From Microbacterium thalassium (lineage in GTDB: Bacteria > Actinomycetota > Actinomycetes > Actinomycetales > Microbacteriaceae): a DNA stretch of 64,000 bases. The stretch is from assembly GCF_014208045.1 (NCBI RefSeq), contig NZ_JACHML010000001.1:3472001-3536000 (forward strand). Direction: 5' to 3'. This document shows positions 41,482 to 50,207 of the stretch, in pieces. Below the pieces are notes generated by a model. That model did not search any database, was not told the origin of the DNA, and was given only the letters and a program-made list of their open reading frames with translations. Each line of letters starts with the position of its first letter. Positions within the stretch are counted from its first letter, which is position 1. A program made the translations under genes and the position numbers.

Positions 41482-42213
41482 TCACGCGGCGGGCGGCTTG
41501 GTCGCCCGGTGCAGCGCCACGATCCCCCAGGTGAGGTTGCGGTGGGCGACGCCGATCCAGCCCGCCTCGCGGATCCACTCCGCCAGCTTCCGCTGGTCGG
41601 GCCAGTCCTTGATCGACTCGTTGAGGTAGTCGTACGCCTCGGCGTTCGAGCTCACCGCTCGCGCCACCGCGGGCAGCACGCGGTCGTTGTAGAAGCGGTA
41701 CAGGCCGTTGAAGGCGGGCGACGGCGGGTGGGAGAACTCGCACACCACGATCCGGCCGCCCGGCTTGGTGACCCGAAGCAGCTCGCGCAGCGCCTTGCGG
41801 GGGTCGATGACGTTGCGCAGCCCGAACGACATCGTCACGGTGTCGAACTCGTCGTCGGCGAACGGCAGGGCGGTGGCGTCCGCCTGGACGAACGACAGGT
41901 TCGGGATGTCGCCGTGCCGGCGCCGGCCCTCGCGGATCATGCCCTGCGAGAAGTCCGCCGCGACGACCTCCGCGCCGCTGCGGGCGAGCGACACGCTGGA
42001 GGCGCCCGTGCCCGCCGCGAGGTCGAGGATGCGCTGGCCCGGCCGCGGATCGACGGCACGCGTGGTCGCGACGCGCCACAGCCGGTCGTTGCCCATGCTC
42101 AGCACGGTGTTCGTGCGGTCGTAGCCTTCGGCGACCTCGTCGAACATGCCGCTGACGGCGGCGGGGTCCTTGCCCAGATCGGCGCGGTTCGGCTGAGGCT
42201 CGGGGGAACTCAC
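41482..42213 (-). CDS. menG: Demethylmenaquinone methyltransferase
   Basis: A 243-residue SAM methyltransferase of the UbiE/COQ5 family; it methylates demethylmenaquinone, the last step of the pathway. Motifs: [37 protein letters not shown] (SAM), [18 protein letters not shown], and [19 protein letters not shown] (42220-42225) sits 6 nt before GTG 42213. The downstream prenyl synthase has its own promoter. Confidence 0.94.
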
Positions 42214-42233
42214 GCGTCGAGTCTACGGCGCGC

Positions 42234-42563
42234 TCAGATCGCCTGAAGCGGCACCCGGACGTCGGCCGCCGCCGGAACGGCGCGCGTGGTCAGGAAGTCC
42301 CCGGTCGCGAAATCGGCGGAACCCGACGCGCTCCCGTGGGCTCGGACGGTGAAGCGCGAGCCCGGTCCCGGGGTGGGATAGTCCAGGTCCACCTCGACGG
42401 CGCCGCCCTCCGCCGGGACCTCGACGTCGGTCAGCGTCTTCTCGGCGACGACGTCCGCCGCGGCATCCGCCCGCGAGGTGTCCTCGACCCGCACGCGGAC
42501 GGCGGCGAGACGACGCCGTGCCCCCGTCGCCGGGAACTCCAGGATCGCGTGGAGCCTCTCCAT
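42234..42563 (-). CDS. YbaY-like (YscW-domain) small protein
   Basis: A 109-residue beta-rich protein. LAAVRVRVEDTSRADAAADVVAEKT and a late FLTTRAV segment resemble the YbaY/YscW domain (PF09619), usually found in lipoproteins; here there is no signal peptide. It is divergent from the astacin/ATP-grasp pair, with 119 bp between starts, so it may belong to that locus. Function unknown. Confidence 0.6.
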   Translation of the reverse strand: MERLHAILEFPATGARRRLAAVRVRVEDTSRADAAADVVAEKTLTDVEVPAEGGAVEVDLDYPTPGPGSRFTVRAHGSASGSADFATGDFLTTRAVPAAADVRVPLQAI

Positions 42564-42569
42564 GACCAC

Positions 42570-42575
42570 ACCGTA
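42570..42575 (-). promoter_or_regulatory. -10 element of the YbaY-like gene
   Basis: TACGGT ends 6 nt before ATG 42563 and lies directly beside the alternative GTG at 42569, favouring the ATG. Confidence 0.55.
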
Positions 42576-42682
42576 CCCCCGTTGCGGCCGCACCGGTTGT
42601 ATCTGGTCGGGACCGGGAGCACTCTGTGATCAGGAGGGCGGTCCGCCTCTGAGTCCGCCCCGCTATGGAGGAAGGGACGACC

Positions 42683-44008
42683 ATGGCTACTCCCAAGAAG
42701 GGCAGCGGCTCGAAGCCGCCGGAAGTGCCCGAGGAGCTCACGAGCGACACCGTCGGCACGACGATGCTCAACGGCTCGACGTTCGCCGGAAAGGAGCTCA
42801 CGTACGCCGAAGTCGACGAGCTCGCCATCTTCGAAGGCGATATCGTGCTCGGCCGCGCGGCCGACATGCAGGCCCCACGGGGTGTTCGCGACGTCGCGTT
42901 CGGCGTCGTCGTGATGCCGGCATCCATGCGATGGCCCAACGCCACCGTGCCCTACGAGATCGACCCGGCGATGCCGAACCAGAACCGCGTCACCGACGCG
43001 ATCGCGCACTGGGAGACCAATACGCCGGTCAGCTTCGTGCAGCGCACGAGCGCGAACGCGGGACAGTTCCCCAACTACGTCCGGTTCTTCGCCGGGAGCG
43101 GATGCTTCTCGTCGGTCGGCATGGTCGGCGGGCGGCAGGACATCTCGCTCGGGTCGAGCTGCTCGACCGGCAACGCCATCCACGAGATCGGCCACGCCGT
43201 CGGGCTCTGGCACGAGCAGAGCCGCGAGGACCGCGACACGTTCGTCACGATCAACTGGGCCAACATCGATCCGTCGAAGGTCCACAACTTCGACCAGCAC
43301 ATCAGCGACGGCGACGACGTCGGAGCGTACGACTACGGCTCGATCATGCACTACCCGGCCACGGCGTTCTCGACCAATGGCCAGCCGACCATCGTGCCCA
43401 CGCAGCCGGGCGTCACGATCGGCCAGCGCAATGGGCTGTCGGCCGGCGACATCGCGGCGATCCAGCAGATCTACCCCACGGGGCCCGTTCTGCCCAAGCA
43501 CATCCGCGACATCAACATCGGCGGGGTCAAGAAGGTCCGCGACGACAACGTCGTGGTCCAGCCCAAGAAGTTGCGCGACGACAACCTCGGCGGGGTCAAG
43601 AAGCTGCGCGACGACAACATCGTGGTCCAGCCCAAGAAGATCCGGGACGACAACATCGTGGTCCAGCCCAAGAAGCTGCGCGACGACAACCTCGGCGGGG
43701 TCAAGAAGGTCCGCGACGACAACGTCGTGACGGTGCCCAAGTCGGTGCGCGACATCACCGTCGGCAAGCGCATCGGCGACATCCCGCGGCCGCAGCGGCC
43801 CGGCTTCGACGTCAACGAACTGCTGCCGTTCATCCTCTCGACGCCGCATCACGCCGAGGCGGCGGGCGGCTACGAGGCCGCGGGAGCCGAGGACGACCCG
43901 GTCGGGCAGCTGCTCGCCGCGGCCGAGGCGGCGCAGGCGGCGGCGGACGCGCTGTCGGCCGCCGCGGTCACACTCGCCGGGCTGCTGGACGACGGGCAGG
44001 GCGTCTGA
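42683..44008 (+). CDS. Astacin-type (M12A) metallopeptidase with repeated Lys/Asp tail; candidate graspetide precursor
   Basis: A 441-residue protein. Residues 1-75 are a polar N-terminus without signal peptide, including ELAIFEGDIVLG, a piece usual in bacterial astacin propeptides. The catalytic domain (about 75-268) has HEIGHAVGLWHEQSREDRD (ligands H167, H171, H177; Glu 168) and the Met-turn SIMHY with Y224. Residues 271-362 hold eight 11-12-residue repeats, six reading KKxRDDN. A 70-residue tail follows, with ELLPFILSTP and an Ala-rich end. ATG 42683 has a GGAGGAAGG site; ATG 42665 lies upstream of it. The ATP-grasp gene follows after 4 bp. The peptidase call is firm; the precursor role is inference. 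Confidence 0.85.
   Translation: MATPKKGSGSKPPEVPEELTSDTVGTTMLNGSTFAGKELTYAEVDELAIFEGDIVLGRAADMQAPRGVRDVAFGVVVMPASMRWPNATVPYEIDPAMPNQNRVTDAIAHWETNTPVSFVQRTSANAGQFPNYVRFFAGSGCFSSVGMVGGRQDISLGSSCSTGNAIHEIGHAVGLWHEQSREDRDTFVTINWANIDPSKVHNFDQHISDGDDVGAYDYGSIMHYPATAFSTNGQPTIVPTQPGVTIGQRNGLSAGDIAAIQQIYPTGPVLPKHIRDINIGGVKKVRDDNVVVQPKKLRDDNLGGVKKLRDDNIVVQPKKIRDDNIVVQPKKLRDDNLGGVKKVRDDNVVTVPKSVRDITVGKRIGDIPRPQRPGFDVNELLPFILSTPHHAEAAGGYEAAGAEDDPVGQLLAAAEAAQAAADALSAAAVTLAGLLDDGQGV
43493..43768 (+). repeat. Eight tandem 33-36-bp coding repeats (KKxRDDN units)
   Basis: Encodes residues 271-362 of the astacin-like protein. Units alternate between 11 and 12 codons: [P/V]K[K/H/S]xRD[D/I][N/T] followed by x-GG or VVVQ-type spacers. 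Six units keep K-K-x-R-D-D-N exactly; the first (KHIRDIN) and last (KSVRDIT) are degenerate. Similar DNA copies suggest growth by unit duplication. Confidence 0.9.
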
Positions 44009-44012
44009 GCCG

Positions 44013-45059
44013 ATGATCCTCATCGAATCGCACGACGGCGACGACCATCTCGCGCCGGTGCGCAGCGAGCTCGAGAGCCGCGGCCACGAGGTCGTGGTGC
44101 TCGACACCGCCCGCTACCCGGTCGAGACGGCCATCGCCATCTCGTACGACGACGCCGGGGCGCAGCCGGACCTGCGGCTGCGCCTCGGCGGGACGGTGCA
44201 CGACCTCAACGCGTGCACCGCCGCGTGGTGGCGTCGCGCGCAGGCGTTCACGCTGCATCCGGAGCTGACGGATGCGGAGGCGCGCACGTTCGCGTACAAC
44301 GAGGCGGCCGAGGGGCTCGAGGGGCTCCGCGCGCTGCTGAAGGTGTCGTGGATCAACGACCCCACGCGGGATGCGCGCGCCGCTCACAAGCCGTACCAGC
44401 TGCGGGAGGCGCGCCGCGCGGGCCTGACGACCCCGCGCACGCTGATGACGAACGACCCGGAGGCGGCGCGCGGGTTCCTGGAAGGCCAGGGCGGGCGCCC
44501 GACGGTCTACAAGTCGTTCCTCGCCCTCGAGGGCGCGTGGCGCGAGACCCGCGTGCTCCGCGACGACGAGCACGACCGGCTGGACCTCGTGCAGGTCGCG
44601 CCCGTGATCTTCCAGGAGTACGTCGACGGAGACGTCGACCTGCGCGTGACCGTCGTGGGCGATGTCGTGCATGCGGCCAAGATCCACTCCGCCCGCACCG
44701 CCTACAACACCGACTACCGGATGGAGCTCGCCACGGTCCCGATGGAGCCGTACGAGCTGCCCGAGAAGGTCCGGCGCGGGGTCATCCGGCTCATGCGGCG
44801 GCTGGGGCTCGTGTACGGCGCGATCGACTTCCGCGTGCGCCCCGACGGCGAGCACGTGTTCTTCGAGATCAACCCCTCGGGGCAGTGGCTGTTCATCGAG
44901 GAGCGCACCGGGCTGCCGATCACGCGCACGTTCGTGGACGCGCTCGCGTCCGCCGACCGCGGCGCGCCGCATCCGCGCTCGGCTCCGAGCGGCTGCCCGG
45001 ACTGCGAGCAGAACGTGCCGCGCGCGCCGCGAGCGCGGGAGGCCGAGCCGGTCGTGTAG
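44013..45059 (+). CDS. ATP-grasp peptide ligase of the MvdC/MvdD (graspetide synthetase) family
   Basis: A 348-residue ATP-grasp enzyme. Features of the MvdC/MvdD branch are AWWRR near 72, WINDP (114-117 region), LMTNDPEAARGFLE, the ATP lysine K167 in VYKSFLAL, FQEYVDGDVDLRVTVVGD, LGLVYGAIDFRVRPDG (D272) and the metal residues E285/N287 in FFEINPSGQWLFIEE. Such enzymes join Lys/Ser/Thr side chains to Asp/Glu side chains of a ribosomal peptide. The tail has an extra CxxC (C328, C331). Its substrate is probably the repeat tail encoded 4 bp upstream. Confidence 0.87.
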   Translation: MILIESHDGDDHLAPVRSELESRGHEVVVLDTARYPVETAIAISYDDAGAQPDLRLRLGGTVHDLNACTAAWWRRAQAFTLHPELTDAEARTFAYNEAAEGLEGLRALLKVSWINDPTRDARAAHKPYQLREARRAGLTTPRTLMTNDPEAARGFLEGQGGRPTVYKSFLALEGAWRETRVLRDDEHDRLDLVQVAPVIFQEYVDGDVDLRVTVVGDVVHAAKIHSARTAYNTDYRMELATVPMEPYELPEKVRRGVIRLMRRLGLVYGAIDFRVRPDGEHVFFEINPSGQWLFIEERTGLPITRTFVDALASADRGAPHPRSAPSGCPDCEQNVPRAPRAREAEPVV

Positions 45060-45062
45060 CGA

Positions 45063-45623
45063 TCAGTGGTGCGAGGGGCCCAGCCCCAGGGCCGCAAGGC
45101 GGTCGAGCCATTCGTCGGCCGCGACGAGATCGAAGGGCGCCTCGTGCGCGCGCACCCGCCGCTCGAGGTCCTCGGCGAGCGCCTCGAGCTTCTCGACGAG
45201 CTCGGGCGGGTAGCCGTAGGCGACCCGGTGCTCGTCCCACTCGTCGCGGTCGTCGATGTACACGCCGGTCTCGGCGCGGTCGACGACGTCGAGGTCCATG
45301 TCGATGCCGGTGGGCGCGCCGTCGCGCCAGCGCACGTCCCACGCGATGTCGATGTAGACGCGCGTCCGGTGCGGGGCGGCGTTGTGCGTGAACGCGTAGT
45401 CGCCGGTGGGCGGGATGAGCGTGACGTTCGGATGCTGCGGCACGAAGTCGCGTCCGGGCCGCGAGCTGTGCCAGCCGGGCAGCTGACCGAACCAGTCGCC
45501 CCAGTCGTCCGTCCCGAGATACACGCACTCATGGATCCAGTGCGGGCCGCCGTCGAACTTGCGCCAGCGGAAGAGCAGGCGCGTGCCCGGCTCGGGGCGC
45601 ACATCGGCGTCGGGTTCGCTCAT
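45063..45623 (-). CDS. DUF402-domain protein
   Basis: A 186-residue DUF402 protein: RTRVYIDIAWDVRWRDG, TGIDMDLDVVDR and DDRDEWDEH supply the Asp/Glu cluster used as the metal site in phosphatases of this family. The N-terminal ~60 residues are Trp-rich (HWIHECVYLGTDDWGDWFGQLPGWHSS). It may hydrolyse nucleoside di/triphosphates, as shown for some members. Start at ATG 45623. It converges on the ATP-grasp gene with a 3-bp gap and is probably unrelated to it. Confidence 0.85.
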   Translation of the reverse strand: MSEPDADVRPEPGTRLLFRWRKFDGGPHWIHECVYLGTDDWGDWFGQLPGWHSSRPGRDFVPQHPNVTLIPPTGDYAFTHNAAPHRTRVYIDIAWDVRWRDGAPTGIDMDLDVVDRAETGVYIDDRDEWDEHRVAYGYPPELVEKLEALAEDLERRVRAHEAPFDLVAADEWLDRLAALGLGPSHH

Positions 45624-45629
45624 CCTCCG

Positions 45630-45692
45630 AGCCTATTGCGCCCCGGAGGTGCCGATGCACCGGGCCGGGCCCCGGCGCGGCGAGTCTAGGCT
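45630..45692. promoter_or_regulatory. Divergent leaderless promoters of DUF402 and menF genes
   Basis: TAGGCT appears twice, once per strand: minus strand at 45630-45635, 6 nt before ATG 45623, and plus strand at 45687-45692, 6 nt before GTG 45699. The identical hexamer and spacing on both sides make this the clearest example of the pattern. Confidence 0.65.
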
Positions 45693-45698
45693 GGTGAC

Positions 45699-47000
45699 GT
45701 GCATGACCCGGCTTCTCCGCGACCTCCACGGCTGGTGGCACGCACCCGGGAGATCGATCCCGTCGAGGAGCTGCTCGCCTACGCATCGCCCGGTTCGCCG
45801 ATGGTGTGGCTGCGACGCGGCGACGGCATGATCGGCATCGGCGAAGCGCTCCGCCTGGGCTTCGGCGGCCGCGACGTGTGGTCGCCGCCCCCCGGTTCCC
45901 CCTCGCCGTCTCCTGCCGATGCGTGGCGCCTGTTCTCGCGCGAGGCCGAGATCGACGACCCGGTGGGGCTCCCGGGGACCGGACTGGTCGCGTTCGGCTC
46001 CTTCGCGTTCGACGAGCGCTCCCGCGCATCGAGCCGCCTGATCGTCCCCGAGACCGTCATCGGCCGGCACGGCGACCGGTTCTGGATGACCCGCATCGGC
46101 GTCGATGAGGAGCCGACCGACGCGGTCCTGGAACCCGCCGCGTTCGGCCCGTACTGGTCCGCGACGATCGGCCCGGGAGCCCTCGACCCGGCGGGCTATC
46201 AGGATGCGGTGCGCGGCGCGCTCGGGACGCTCGCCGACGGCGAGGTCAGCAAGGTGGTGATCGCCCGCGATCTGGAGGGCACGATCCCCGCCGGTGCGGA
46301 CCTGCGACGCCTGGCCCGGGCTCTCGCGGACGGCTATCCCGACACGTGGGCGTTCGCCGTCGACGGACTGATCGGCGCGAGTCCCGAGACGCTCGTCACC
46401 GTGTCGGACGGCATCGCGGCGGCGCGCGTGCTCGCCGGCACGACACCGCGCGGCGCCGACCCCGACGCCGATGCCGAGGCCGCCATCGCGCTGTCGACGT
46501 CGGCGAAGGATCTCGACGAGCACCAGTACGCGGTGCAGAGCGTGCTCGCGTCGCTGCGCCCGCACACCAGCGCCCTGTCGGCCGGCGAGCAGCCGTTCGC
46601 GCTCAAACTCCCCAACGTGTGGCACCTCGCCACCGATGTCGCCGCCGACGTGGCACCGGGAACGAGCGCTCTCGACCTCGTCGAGGCGCTGCATCCGACC
46701 GCCGCCGTCGCGGGGACGCCGACGGATGCCGCGCTCGGCGTCATCCGCCGCCTCGAGCCGTTCGACCGCGGGCGCTACGCGGGGCCTGTGGGCTGGATCG
46801 ACGCCGCGGGCGACGGCGAGTGGGCGATCGCGCTGCGCTGCGCGCAGATCGACGTCGACCCCCGGGGCGACGCCAAGGACGCCGACCGGATCCGTGTCTC
46901 GGCGTTCGCGGGCGCCGGGATCGTCGCCGGGAGCGACCCCGAGTCGGAGCTGGTCGAAACCCGCGTGAAGTTCCGCCCGATCATCGACGCCCTCGCGTAG
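45699..47000 (+). CDS. menF: Isochorismate synthase
   Basis: A 433-residue chorismate-binding enzyme, the entry step from chorismate to menaquinone. Motifs: KVVIARDLEG, GLIGASPETLVTVSDG, ARVLAGTTPRG, STSAKDLDEHQYAVQSVL, NVWHLATDV and AFAGAGIVAGSDPESELVETRVKF. EntC/DhbC paralogs are excluded only by context, since the other men genes surround it and no siderophore genes do. Confidence 0.93.
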   Translation: MHDPASPRPPRLVARTREIDPVEELLAYASPGSPMVWLRRGDGMIGIGEALRLGFGGRDVWSPPPGSPSPSPADAWRLFSREAEIDDPVGLPGTGLVAFGSFAFDERSRASSRLIVPETVIGRHGDRFWMTRIGVDEEPTDAVLEPAAFGPYWSATIGPGALDPAGYQDAVRGALGTLADGEVSKVVIARDLEGTIPAGADLRRLARALADGYPDTWAFAVDGLIGASPETLVTVSDGIAAARVLAGTTPRGADPDADAEAAIALSTSAKDLDEHQYAVQSVLASLRPHTSALSAGEQPFALKLPNVWHLATDVAADVAPGTSALDLVEALHPTAAVAGTPTDAALGVIRRLEPFDRGRYAGPVGWIDAAGDGEWAIALRCAQIDVDPRGDAKDADRIRVSAFAGAGIVAGSDPESELVETRVKFRPIIDALA

Positions 47001-47025
47001 CGCGCGAGGTCCGCCGCCGCGCGGC

Positions 47026-47889
47026 TCAGGATGCCGCGAGCCGCGCCTTCTCCCGGGCGATGTCGTAGTCGGCGTCGGGCCATTGCGGGTCGATGTCGTC
47101 CAGCGCCTGCAGCAGGAGATTCTGGACGGCCAGGCGCGCGTACCACTTGCGGTCGGCGGGCACGACGTGCCACGGCGCGTAGAGCGTCGAGGTGCGGTCG
47201 AAGACGGTCTGGTACGCCGACATGTAGTGCGGCCACAGCACGCGCTCGTCGACGTCGCCCGGAGTGAACTTCCACTGCTTCTCGCCGCGGTCCAGGCGTG
47301 CCATCAGCCGGTCCCGCTGCTCCTCGTACGAGATGTGGAGCATGACCTTGACGATGCGGGTACCCGCCTCGAAGAGGGTCTTCTCGAACTCGTTGATCGC
47401 GTCGTACCGGCGCTCGATCTCGTCGGGACCGGCGAGCTCGCGCACCTTCGCCACGAGCACGTCCTCGTAGTGGGAGCGGTCGAACACCGCGATCCGGCCC
47501 GGCCCGGGGCGGTGCTTGGCGATGCGCCACAGGAAGTCGTGCTCGAGCTCCTCCTCAGTGGGCTTCTTGAACGCGGTGACGTCCACGCCCTGCGGGTTGC
47601 CGGCCCCGACGACGTGGCGGACGATCCCGCCCTTGCCGGCGGAGTCCATCGCCTGCAGCACCAGCAGCACGGATCCGCTCGTCGTCTCGGACTGGCTCGC
47701 GGCGAACAGGCGCTCCTGGTAGTCCTCGAAGTCCGCGGCGCCCGAAGACAGGTCGTCCTTTCCGTCGTCCTTGTCCCCGTCGTACCCCGGTGTCGAGCGC
47801 GGGTCCACACCCGACAGCACGAAGCCGTCGCGCACGCGCAGCAGGTCGGCGACGTCGTCGGTCCAGTTCTTGTGGCTCTTGGCGGTCAT
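47026..47889 (-). CDS. Polyphosphate kinase 2 family protein
   Basis: A 287-residue PPK2 enzyme, which transfers phosphate between polyphosphate and nucleotides. Walker A is VLQAMDSAGKGGIVRHVV and Walker B is IAVFDRSHYEDVLVAKV; lid arginines lie in EERRDRLM-like SYEEQRDRLMARL. Polyphosphate:AMP versus ADP specificity is unclear. CAGGAT (47896-47901) ends 6 nt before ATG 47889. Confidence 0.92.
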   Translation of the reverse strand: MTAKSHKNWTDDVADLLRVRDGFVLSGVDPRSTPGYDGDKDDGKDDLSSGAADFEDYQERLFAASQSETTSGSVLLVLQAMDSAGKGGIVRHVVGAGNPQGVDVTAFKKPTEEELEHDFLWRIAKHRPGPGRIAVFDRSHYEDVLVAKVRELAGPDEIERRYDAINEFEKTLFEAGTRIVKVMLHISYEEQRDRLMARLDRGEKQWKFTPGDVDERVLWPHYMSAYQTVFDRTSTLYAPWHVVPADRKWYARLAVQNLLLQALDDIDPQWPDADYDIAREKARLAAS

Positions 47890-47952
47890 GGAGCCATCCT
47901 GGCGTGACGGGCCGATCGGGAGGCAGAGGGTTGCGCCGCGGCGCGCGACGTG

Positions 47953-49764
47953 TCAGCGCTCGAGCGGCACCTCGATCAGCTGACGGCCGGCGACCGGCGA
48001 CGTCAGCAGCTGGTCGAGGGCCGACCTCGTCGTCGCGCGGTGGTACTCGCACCCGTAGGCGGCCGCGAGCTGGGCGAAGTCGATCCGCTGGGGCGTGTAC
48101 AGCACGCGGTCGATCACGTCGGCGCCCGCGGTCTGCGCGACCTCGAGGGTGTCGAAGATGGTCCCGCCGCCGTCGTTGCCCACGATCACCTGAAGGCGCG
48201 GCTCGTCCTCGCCCGGGGGCAGCGCGAGCGCTCCCGCGTCATGGGCTGCGGCCAGGTCGCCCAGGAGCACGCGCGTCACGCCCGGGGTGCCCGCCGCCTG
48301 GCTGGCGAGCGCGATGCCCGTCGCCGTCGCGATCGTGCCGTCGATGCCCGCGAGACCGCGGTTGGCATGGACCGGGACCTTCTTGCCCGGCAGCACCGCG
48401 TCGGCGACGCGCACGAGCCGCGACGATCCGAACACGAGCCGGTCGTGCGGCCACGTCGCCCGCCATACGGCATCGACGAGGGTCTGCCGGTCGAGCTCCG
48501 CGCGGATCGCCGCCATCTCGGACGCGATGGCCCCGAGCCGCTGCTCGGGAACGGTCGACGCGAGTCCGGCCGCATCGGGAGCGGGCGGCGACAGATCGAC
48601 CGCGGCCGCCCGCGACGCGGTGAGCCACGCCCCGAGCCACACGCGATCGGGCGGACCCGCCGCCACCGCCAGCGCATCGACCGCGACGGTCGCGCCGTTG
48701 AGATTGAGGGGCTCCCCCGGCCCGCGCACCGCGACGACCTCGACGTCCCTTCTGCCGAGCAGCGCCGCCGCCTCGCGGCTGAGCGTCGGATGCCCGAACA
48801 CGACCGCACGCTCGACGCGGCCGCCGAGCTCCGGATCGGTCAGTGCCGCGCGATAGCCGTGGATCACGAGCCGTCCGAAGCGGGCTCCGCTGACGATCTC
48901 GGCGACGAGCGGCCAGCCGCCCAGGTGCGCGAGGGTCTCGGCATCCGCTCCCGCGTCCGCTCCGGCGATCACGATCGTCCGGGGGCCTCGCTCGAGCACG
49001 AACGGGTCGTCGGCGGGGGCGAGGGGGACGTCGGCCTCGCCGATCCCCCCTCCGCCCTGGTACAGCGCGCCCGACGCATCGCCGAACGGCTCGTCGGCGT
49101 CGTCGGCGTCGCCCGCGACCGCCAGATCGGGAGGGGTGCCGAGCCGGCCGCGCGTCTCGGATGCCGCGACGCCGATCCATTCCGGCAGCGGACCGCTCAG
49201 CGGCTCGCGGTACGGCAGGTTCAGATGGACCGGGCCCGCCGACCACAGTCCGGCGCCGAGCGCGGCGGCGAGCGCCTGGTCGGCGACGTCGCGCAGCATC
49301 GCCGTCTGGTCGGCGTCGCCGTCCGGGTCGACGTCCTCGGGGACCGGCAGATCCGTCTCGAAGCGCGCGGCGGCCGAGAACATCCCCGGCTGCCGGGTGG
49401 TCTGGTTCGCCCCGACCCCGCGCAGCTCCGGCGGCCGGTCGGCGGTGAGCAGGATCAGCGGCACGCCGGCGTGATGCGCTTCGAGTGCGGCGGGCAGCAG
49501 GTTCGCGGCCGCCGTCCCCGAGGTGCAGATCACGGCGGCGGGCATTCCGCTCTCCCGTCCGATGCCGAGGGCGGTGAACCCCGCGACCCGCTCGTCGACG
49601 CGCACGTGCAGCGCGATGTCGCCGCGTCGCTCGAGGTCGGCGGCGACGACCGCCAGCGCCTGGGACCGCGAGCCGGGGCTCAGCACGACGTGCTGCACGC
49701 CCTGCTCGACCAGACGGCGCAGCAGTGCCGCGGCCGCGTCGGCCGCCGGCGACCGGCCCGTCAT
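47953..49764 (-). CDS. menD: SEPHCHC synthase
   Basis: A 603-residue thiamine-diphosphate enzyme joining isochorismate and 2-oxoglutarate. It has LSPGSRSQALA near 30, ERVAGFTALGIGRESG, ICTSGTAAANLLPA, LTADRPPELRGVGANQT, and the ThDP segment VIVGNDGGGTIFDTLE. An acidic Gly-rich insertion in the middle (about 195-235) is typical of actinobacteria. ATG 49764 follows the PLDc_N gene by 2 bp, so they are co-transcribed. Confidence 0.95.
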   Translation of the reverse strand: MTGRSPAADAAAALLRRLVEQGVQHVVLSPGSRSQALAVVAADLERRGDIALHVRVDERVAGFTALGIGRESGMPAAVICTSGTAAANLLPAALEAHHAGVPLILLTADRPPELRGVGANQTTRQPGMFSAAARFETDLPVPEDVDPDGDADQTAMLRDVADQALAAALGAGLWSAGPVHLNLPYREPLSGPLPEWIGVAASETRGRLGTPPDLAVAGDADDADEPFGDASGALYQGGGGIGEADVPLAPADDPFVLERGPRTIVIAGADAGADAETLAHLGGWPLVAEIVSGARFGRLVIHGYRAALTDPELGGRVERAVVFGHPTLSREAAALLGRRDVEVVAVRGPGEPLNLNGATVAVDALAVAAGPPDRVWLGAWLTASRAAAVDLSPPAPDAAGLASTVPEQRLGAIASEMAAIRAELDRQTLVDAVWRATWPHDRLVFGSSRLVRVADAVLPGKKVPVHANRGLAGIDGTIATATGIALASQAAGTPGVTRVLLGDLAAAHDAGALALPPGEDEPRLQVIVGNDGGGTIFDTLEVAQTAGADVIDRVLYTPQRIDFAQLAAAYGCEYHRATTRSALDQLLTSPVAGRQLIEVPLER

Positions 49765-49766
49765 GC

Positions 49767-50207
49767 TCAGCCGAGTGCGCCGCGCTGACCGCGGCTGTCG
49801 TCGTCGGGGTCGGTGGACCTCGTCGGCGGCTCGGCCGCACCGGTCCCGGCCGACGACGTCGGCGGGGTCGCGGGGCCGTCCGGACGCAGGTCGTCCTCGG
49901 CGTCGAGCTGGGCCAGCTCCTCCTCGAGGCGGCGGATGCGCTCGTCCTGGTCGCTGATCGTGCCGATGCTGCCCAGGAACTCGGGGTCGTCGTCCGGCGC
50001 CTTCGGAGCACGCATCTGCGTCGCGCGGGCACGTCCCACGACGAACCACAGGATGCCGCCGAGCACCGGAAGCAGGACGACGATCGCGATCCACGCCGGC
50101 TTCCCGACTCCGCGATGGCGGGTGGGATGCTGAACGGCGCAGTCCACGATGGAGTACACCCAGAAGGCCGCGGCCACCAGGGCACCGATCACAAGCGCTC
50201 GTGCCAC
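49767..50207 (-). CDS. PLDc_N-domain membrane protein
   Basis: A 146-residue protein. Two membrane helices (residues 2-24 and 36-58) with VDCAVQHPTRHRGVGKPAWIAIVVLLPVLGGILWF between them form the phospholipase-D N-terminal-like domain; no catalytic HKD motif is present. A coiled, acidic tail (DQDERIRRLEEELAQLDAEDD) follows. It is first in the operon with menD, with TAGGAT (50214-50219) 6 nt before GTG 50207. Confidence 0.85.
   Translation of the reverse strand: MARALVIGALVAAAFWVYSIVDCAVQHPTRHRGVGKPAWIAIVVLLPVLGGILWFVVGRARATQMRAPKAPDDDPEFLGSIGTISDQDERIRRLEEELAQLDAEDDLRPDGPATPPTSSAGTGAAEPPTRSTDPDDDSRGQRGALG

Follow-up and report, generated by a model that had tools for sequence, protein, structure and literature searches.

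A tailed astacin and its neighbouring ATP-grasp ligase in Microbacterium thalassium: a candidate graspetide-type system for stapling enzyme tails

The actinobacterium Microbacterium thalassium encodes, within the 64,000-nucleotide stretch of DNA analysed here (the window; RefSeq assembly GCF_014208045.1, contig NZ_JACHML010000001.1, positions 3,472,001 to 3,536,000), an astacin-type metallopeptidase that ends in a repeated tail rich in Lys and Asp and, 4 bp after its stop codon, an ATP-grasp ligase of the MvdC/MvdD type. The two genes probably form a natural cassette that staples enzyme tails by graspetide-type chemistry, with a follower motif behind the repeats as the guide. On a fuller account, for which the balance is only slightly favourable, repeats and follower constitute a portable C-terminal module that would recruit the neighbouring ligase to unrelated enzymes (metalloproteases, serine proteases and tyrosinases), and the resulting chain of lactam or lactone rings would stay on the active, full-length enzyme. 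The basis for both is observed directly and consists of the gene architecture, the co-occurrence of tail and ligase, the conserved motif, the residue pattern of the repeats and the family of the ligase. A reading made earlier from the sequence of the window (the original prediction) had proposed a graspetide-type system in which an astacin bears the core. This interpretation is partly supported: the association of tail and ligase was found, and the restriction to astacins proved too narrow, with several unrelated enzyme families carrying the tail.

Co-occurrence of tail and ligase

Relatives of the window astacin, scanned in one genome per species, gave 27 loci, which were sorted by reading their translations into 13 with a tail (Lys/Asp- or Lys/Glu-rich repeats followed by a motif beginning with Pro-Phe, the PF motif), 1 with a decayed tail and 13 with no tail of this kind. 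In tblastn searches, 12 of the 13 tailed loci had a ligase immediately behind the astacin, the contig of the thirteenth (L004) stopping within the tail, and none of the 14 loci lacking an intact tail had one. The co-conservation asked for by the original prediction was thus found (12 of 12 judgeable tailed loci against 0 of 14; Fisher p = 1e-7), and it holds after removal of three near-duplicates (9 of 9 against 0 of 14; p = 1e-6). Sources of the tailed loci are Cellulomonas, Streptomyces and Polaromonas, together with unclassified genomes of actinobacteria and proteobacteria. In a search of the entire genomes that hold the 13 untailed loci, with a ligase profile at E 1e-20, 8 had no match at that threshold, a metagenome-assembled genome of the Bacteroidia (G409) had two weak ligases, and four Nocardia genomes had one distant ligase each, which follows a small protein (three of these span 141 residues from stop to stop, the fourth 244). 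Two of the untailed proteins (L013 and L014), from Rhodococcus and Nocardia, terminate in long tandem repeats of about 50 residues (WSGxGDRWRNIGGVFP...) with a lectin-like look. The decayed tail belongs to Streptomyces malachitofuscus (L012, genome G399), whose astacin keeps the PF motif and whose only ligase is a distant one elsewhere in the genome.

The same pairing is reached from the ligase. A ligase query matched 26 of 396 Actinomycetota genomes at E 1e-15, and the best match beyond the window's own genome, 48% identical, adjoins an upstream Peptidase_M43 protein that bears a tail of the same type. Nineteen aligned ligases (A1) then served to search the phyla of G407 (297 genomes) and G397 (398), the window's order (396) and the class of G078 (199), with few candidates scored per genome in these wide searches, and eight loci were read over longer stretches. 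Matches at E 1e-70 occur in 7 of the 396 genomes of the window's order, among them the untailed G225. Across 75 ligase rows, which include identical or adjacent places (L035/L104, L075/L083 and L085/L090), all 18 with at least 242 bits against A1 rows are preceded by a protein that measures 376 residues or more from stop to stop and has the PF motif near its C-terminus and a tail rich in donors and acceptors. Ten of these 18 are A1 rows or lie at the same place and score high by construction, which does not apply to L005, L091, L099-L103 and L106. For the 57 rows at 198 bits or below, the upstream side shows small proteins or lacks a tailed enzyme. The original prediction had named ligases beside small precursors as the contrary case; close relatives adjoin tailed enzymes and distant ones small proteins, with G225 (L104) as the exception. 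The sole upstream open reading frame (ORF) there is one of 16 residues (MHPQFAPYGDDRGAVA) that overlaps the ligase start, and this ligase has perhaps been repurposed, with a minimal precursor. In the ligase tree, 19 tail rows lie alongside 11 non-tail rows within one 30-row part (support 94/93), and three changes between tail and non-tail suffice, compared with 17 in shuffles.

The family of G397 was covered by 133 genomes: two carry such an astacin, both times tailed and followed by the ligase, and a close ligase (E 2e-132 or better) occurs in three. In G1755, where a close ligase occurs and no astacin is matched, the upstream gene encodes a tailed M43 peptidase with PFVLSTPHH, as the presence of the ligase had led one to predict. 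Six further matches to the ligase in this family (five genomes, E 7e-72 or worse) are not preceded by a tailed enzyme. Because the pairing recurs in several phyla and the motif is kept in 234 of 240 listed relatives, it is not due to chance; the cassette is real, sparse and taxonomically broad.

Viral contigs yielded two distant ligases without an upstream tailed enzyme in a first scan, and a single match, judged to be chance, in a second. On plasmids, a tyrosinase carrier query gave 32 records, none covering 80% of it, and coverage among the 20 listed was confined to the first 281 residues; the astacin query gave 12 records, none reaching the tail; and the ligase query gave 16, with L091 as the best. 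In each of 23 genomes, a tail profile matched one place at most; since it recovered 7 of the 12 known tails, together with the decayed one, further tailed proteins are possible in those genomes. A larger conserved gene cluster was rejected: across 19 loci, sharing beyond the pair and its overlapping frames is limited to close relatives or to single pairs of loci, such as two genes common to L001 and L003.

Carriers, repeat pattern and follower motif

Unrelated enzymes carry the tail. With residues 290-489 of the M43 protein of L030 as the query against 5.8 billion proteins, 7995 candidates were scored and 150 relatives found, 120 of which are listed. By hand count of their Pfam domains, these comprise 52 M43 peptidases, 29 tyrosinases, 16 trypsin-like proteases, 9 astacins, 6 subtilases, 2 BNR-type proteins, 1 PF25819 protein and 5 without a domain; the repeats and the PF motif were present in all 24 tails read. 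A domain rescan of six of these relatives and four carriers from the loci placed M43, trypsin-like, tyrosinase and subtilase domains above cutoff, BNR_2 narrowly so and PF25819 only below it; in the scanned proteins, the tail lies outside every Pfam and NCBIfam match above cutoff. Beyond the astacins, the ligase adjoins M43 proteins (L105, L091, L120), a trypsin-like protein (L102, with a gap of 126 bp) and an unclassified one (L106). An astacin-only system was rejected, the same tail being present on M43, trypsin-like, unclassified and other carriers, and the tail is, as judged from sequence, a portable module on several unrelated enzyme families. In a hydropathy test for signal peptides, six of 240 N-termini exceeded the threshold, none convincingly by eye; three untailed relatives taken for comparison pass the same test.

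The eight tandem units of 11-12 residues described in the original prediction, six of them KKxRDDN, were confirmed by their positions in the window protein. They begin at residues 272, 283, 295, 306, 318, 330, 341 and 353 (spacing 11-12), the outermost two reading KHIRDIN and KSVRDIT, and a weaker ninth, KRIGDIP, stands at residue 362. Across 237 tails, Asp is found at +4 from Lys 2034 times, compared with 394 in shuffles, at +3 1388 times (398 shuffled) and at +5 1027 times (389 shuffled); it is depleted at +1, +2 and +6 to +8, and enriched at -5 to -7 because of the neighbouring unit. With units aligned as x1-x5, D6, x7, position 3 holds Lys in 1168 cases and Arg in 14, and position 5 Arg in 686 and Lys in 10. 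Furthermore, K3 and the acid at position 7 covary: among the 632 K2 units of the astacin set, both are present in 426, neither is found in 202 and just one in 4, a cleaner figure than the wider tables of the same analysis, which include pieces of catalytic domains, and than the count over 237 tails, in which units such as NKFRDDG are one residue off register and inflate the "neither" class. The KKxRDD and KxxxDP units thus differ by one complete donor-acceptor pair, and such paired changes are consistent with bonds between those positions. Short of proof, the Lys/Asp patterns fit side-chain bonding better than a plain charged linker.

Tails differ in kind among the carriers. In the M43 protein of Burkholderia stagnalis (L091), most units are TLASTD- or TIATAD-like, keeping T1 and D6 and losing both K3 and acid 7, and the trypsin-like L102 tail resembles it, with Thr replacing most Lys. 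If the macrolactam rings suggested by the original prediction form, these two tails indicate that they would not be the full picture. KE-type tails are found in L100 and L103, and a KxxDP tail in L106, an acidobacterial protein (G610) without a Pfam match, which has a short N-terminal region, a very long repeat and a C-terminal GPFILTTNWPY ending, with the ligase directly after. The window astacin (P0001, 441 aa) differs in repeat number from a 90% identical relative (P0002, 406 aa), so that units seem, from these sequences, to be gained and lost fast. A relative of the window ligase is 99% identical to it, and its pairing with P0002 is a hint that was not used as evidence.

Behind the repeats of the window protein follow PFILSTPHH and a helix. 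This C-terminal PFxLxTPHH, overlooked by the original prediction, resembles the leader motif of small graspetide precursors, Phhx(1,2)h, which precedes the core; here PFILS lies C-terminal to the repeats, reversing the usual order. The PF motif is present in 114 of 120 relatives picked by astacin similarity and in all 120 picked by tail. The six without it are P0008 and P0010 (PLILATGHH), P0083 (PFTAATAHH), P0020 (tailless), P0096 (aberrant C-terminus) and P0106 (incomplete end). The window ligase itself terminates in CPDCEQN (44994-45014), and an ending of the form CxxCEQN is shared by the ligases of L001, L002, L003 and P0135 and, oddly, by the tailless astacin P0020, which is labelled Cellulomonas fimi.

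Proposed stapling and its alternatives

The ligase carries an MvdD pre-ATP-grasp domain (E 1.7e-10). Its nearest NCBIfam model is TIGR04187 (245.6 bits), followed by MvdC (178), MvdD (175) and the RimK family (52.7), and its profile scores are 217 bits for MdnB, 210 for MdnC and 40 for RimK. The structure model (predicted local distance difference test, pLDDT, 87.5) matches the folds of MdnC, PruB, AMdnB, CdnC, PsnB and MdnB ahead of RimK. In agreement with the original prediction, the synthetase is thus of the MvdC/MvdD/TIGR04187 group found in graspetide systems, nearest to proven graspetide macrocyclases, and RimK-type glutamate ligases are the best match by neither profile nor fold.

The ligase is proposed to dock on the product of the gene immediately upstream, at its C-terminal PFxLxTPHH follower, and to use ATP to activate Asp side chains of the disordered repeats and join them to the side chains of Lys, or of Thr in some tails, a few residues earlier. 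This would turn the tail into a row of small lactam or lactone rings, with bonds in the window probably between K2 and D6 and between K3 and D7 of every xKKxRDDN unit. The likely end product is a full-length enzyme with a stapled, protease-resistant stalk, which may protect against self-digestion, act as an anchor or a stiff stalk, or serve as an export element. The cassette is best read as working like a graspetide system, in that a neighbouring precursor offers Lys/Thr/Ser donors and Asp/Glu acceptors, while departing from two classic features, the small precursor (an enzyme of 441 aa here, and at least 376 aa stop to stop in other carriers) and the leader before the core.

Three other explanations bear on the same observations. 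The enzyme could be merely a carrier, or its own maturation protease, with the cross-linked tail cut off as a small graspetide and perhaps a protease inhibitor. Characterised graspetides are indeed small, and all so far are protease inhibitors according to PMC8939145; proteases also make up the majority of the listed carriers. However, 29 of the 120 listed carriers are tyrosinases by hand count, which implies that a protease is dispensable, and active-site motifs are intact in all 120 listed astacins (including the untailed P0020) and in the 27 M43 proteins checked out of 52, as if the enzyme itself matters. No further gene is widely common to the loci, and no supporting evidence was found for the earlier suggestion that the protease frees the modified tail. 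Release of the tail is considered unlikely.

The tail could alternatively be a plain charged linker, an anchor or an export signal, with the ligase acting on another target. It is charged, of low complexity and modelled as disordered, and the 240 proteins have no evident signal peptides by hydropathy, so the tail might serve export. Set against this are the recurrent pairing with the ligase, the discrimination between Lys and Arg at unit positions, the retention of the ligase by T..D tails with few or zero Lys, and the decayed tail whose locus has no ligase, which together make a mere linker highly improbable. Least probable of all is that the ligase adds amino acids to side chains of the tail without cross-links, in the manner of glutamate addition by RimK. 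The two share a superfamily, and RimK-type folds rank next after the macrocyclases, but profile and fold are far nearer to the latter, and the paired change of donor and acceptor suits bonds between them. A RimK-like function was rejected as first choice on profile scores (40 against 217 bits) and fold order.

Several points weigh against stapling of retained tails. The TIGR04187 score falls short of that model's cutoff of 350. The decayed tail of L012 retains its PF motif with no ligase beside it, as if the system had been lost recently. The tail-linked ligases are not a single clade, the non-tail rows being intermixed, and the G225 ligase sits on a long branch inside the tail part of the tree with no tailed gene next to it. 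The wide diversity of tails (KE-, KxxDP- and T..D-types) counts likewise, as does the missing helix after the motif of L106, in which the PF motif by itself may suffice. Adjacency of the ligase was seen for astacin, M43, trypsin-like and unclassified carriers, those of the tyrosinase, subtilase and BNR types being known as protein sequences, and because repeat units of one family depend on each other, their counts overstate significance. Finally, the bonds and their connectivity, docking on the follower, retention of the tail and the role of the stalk are inferred.

The window locus and known systems

Features of the locus are collected below, in window coordinates. The preferred start of the astacin gene is the ATG at 42683, preceded by GGAGGAAGG, with the stop codon at 44006-44008; the start of 42234 given in the original prediction is the end of an unrelated minus-strand ORF. 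The intact M12A metallopeptidase reported there was upheld, with a Pfam Astacin match (E 2.5e-53, residues 83-264) and both catalytic signatures, HEIGHAVGLWHE (HExxHxxGxxH) and SIMHY. The NCBIfam model LegP (NF045530) scores 336.2 bits, above its cutoff of 300, and spans 244 positions, with the tail outside it. Its name, which implies delivery through a Dot/Icm secretion system, is used here as a label only. In the propeptide, E-G-D-I is invariant in 30 of 30 aligned tailed astacins and [EQ]GD[IV] occurs in all 120 listed astacins, the untailed P0020 among them; FEGDI may act as an aspartate switch, as in pro-astacin. The structure model of the window astacin is poor overall (mean pLDDT 58.6), with a disordered tail and a helix at the terminus.

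Table 1. Features of the astacin-ligase locus in the window
Feature	Positions	Strand	Basis
Likely ribosome-binding site (GGAGGAAGG) of the astacin gene	42667..42675	+	Sequence
Tailed LegP-like astacin gene, 441 aa; carrier and proposed substrate	42683..44008	+	ORF, Pfam, NCBIfam
FEGDI, residues 50-54, propeptide motif	42830..42844	+	Conserved in aligned astacins
Astacin catalytic domain with HExxHxxGxxH and SxMHY	42929..43474	+	Pfam, residues 83-264
Repeated tail, residues 272-368, eight K..RD units and a weaker ninth; proposed core	43496..43786	+	Repeat reading; modelled disordered
PFILSTPHH, residues 382-390; proposed follower (recognition) motif	43826..43852	+	Motif conservation
C-terminal helix, residues 406-438	43898..43996	+	Structure model, poor overall (mean pLDDT 58.6)
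MvdC/D-type, TIGR04187-like ATP-grasp ligase; proposed tail-stapling enzyme	44013..45059	+	Pfam, NCBIfam, model, fold and profile comparison

Within 41482-50094 of the window, a demethylmenaquinone methyltransferase gene adjoins the pair, and the ORFs at 45699-47000 and 47953-50094 resemble isochorismate synthase and MenD, as judged by eye. Between the methyltransferase and the astacin lies a 109-residue ORF (42237-42563, minus strand) without a Pfam or NCBIfam match.

In open-licence literature, judged by titles and the openings of abstracts, no description of enzyme tails of this kind was found, and nothing was found there that brings graspetides and astacins together. The closest likeness is to corallotide (group 15, CorA/CorB), in which a TIGR04187 ligase forms Lys-Asp isopeptides in KxxxD repeats, proven at i,i+4 in KIVADDP (PMC13097080). 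The same +4 is the commonest spacing from Lys to Asp over the 237 tails. Corallotide differs in its precursor of about 22 kDa, with repeats after an N-terminal region and an oxygenase and a beta-lactamase nearby; this precursor is no enzyme that ends in a tail and C-terminal motif.

Microviridin systems (MdnA/B/C, AMdnB) provide the nearest solved ligases, and the microviridin core TxKxPSD, part of a longer motif (PMC8939145), has the same T-x-K-x-x-x-D spacing as the TLKFRDD units. Microviridins have a small precursor with an N-terminal leader of the PFFARFL type and usually one cage-like core. In multi-core graspetides, the precursors are peptides with the leader first. As in the window, one ligase acts on repeated cores in plesiocin (PsnA2/PsnB) and chryseoviridin (CdnC), and PsnB and CdnC are among the structural matches; an enzyme domain is absent from these precursors.

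Ligases tied to diverse protease families have been seen before. Branches 7 and 8 of one survey are linked to peptidases of several families with undetectable precursors, and its methods dropped some large motif-matching proteins that lay far from the ligase or had incompatible annotation (PMC8939145). Group 32 ligases of another have diverse neighbouring proteases, interpreted as acting in maturation or resistance (PMC13097080). Ligases of the window type likely correspond to branches 7 and 8 or to group 32, in which case the proteases would be carriers of the tail, whereas the surveys took them as peptide suppliers, maturation factors or resistance factors. If stapling is correct, it offers a candidate answer to the puzzle of ATP-grasp branches near peptidases without a precursor (PMC8939145), and graspetide chemistry would reach beyond peptides, as a bacterial post-translational modification of whole enzymes.

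Finally, engineered ThfA/ThfB still works with the leader moved to the C-terminus (PMC13003496), and ThfB accepts folded-protein substrates in protein cyclisation (PMC12291112). If stapling is correct, the genetically encoded tail and ligase would likewise be a pair usable for protein stapling. The C-terminal leader and folded substrates of ThfA/ThfB are shared with the cassette described here, but those are laboratory constructs and not natural genes; if the proposed stapling holds, the recently engineered order of core and then follower (PMC13003496) already exists in nature.

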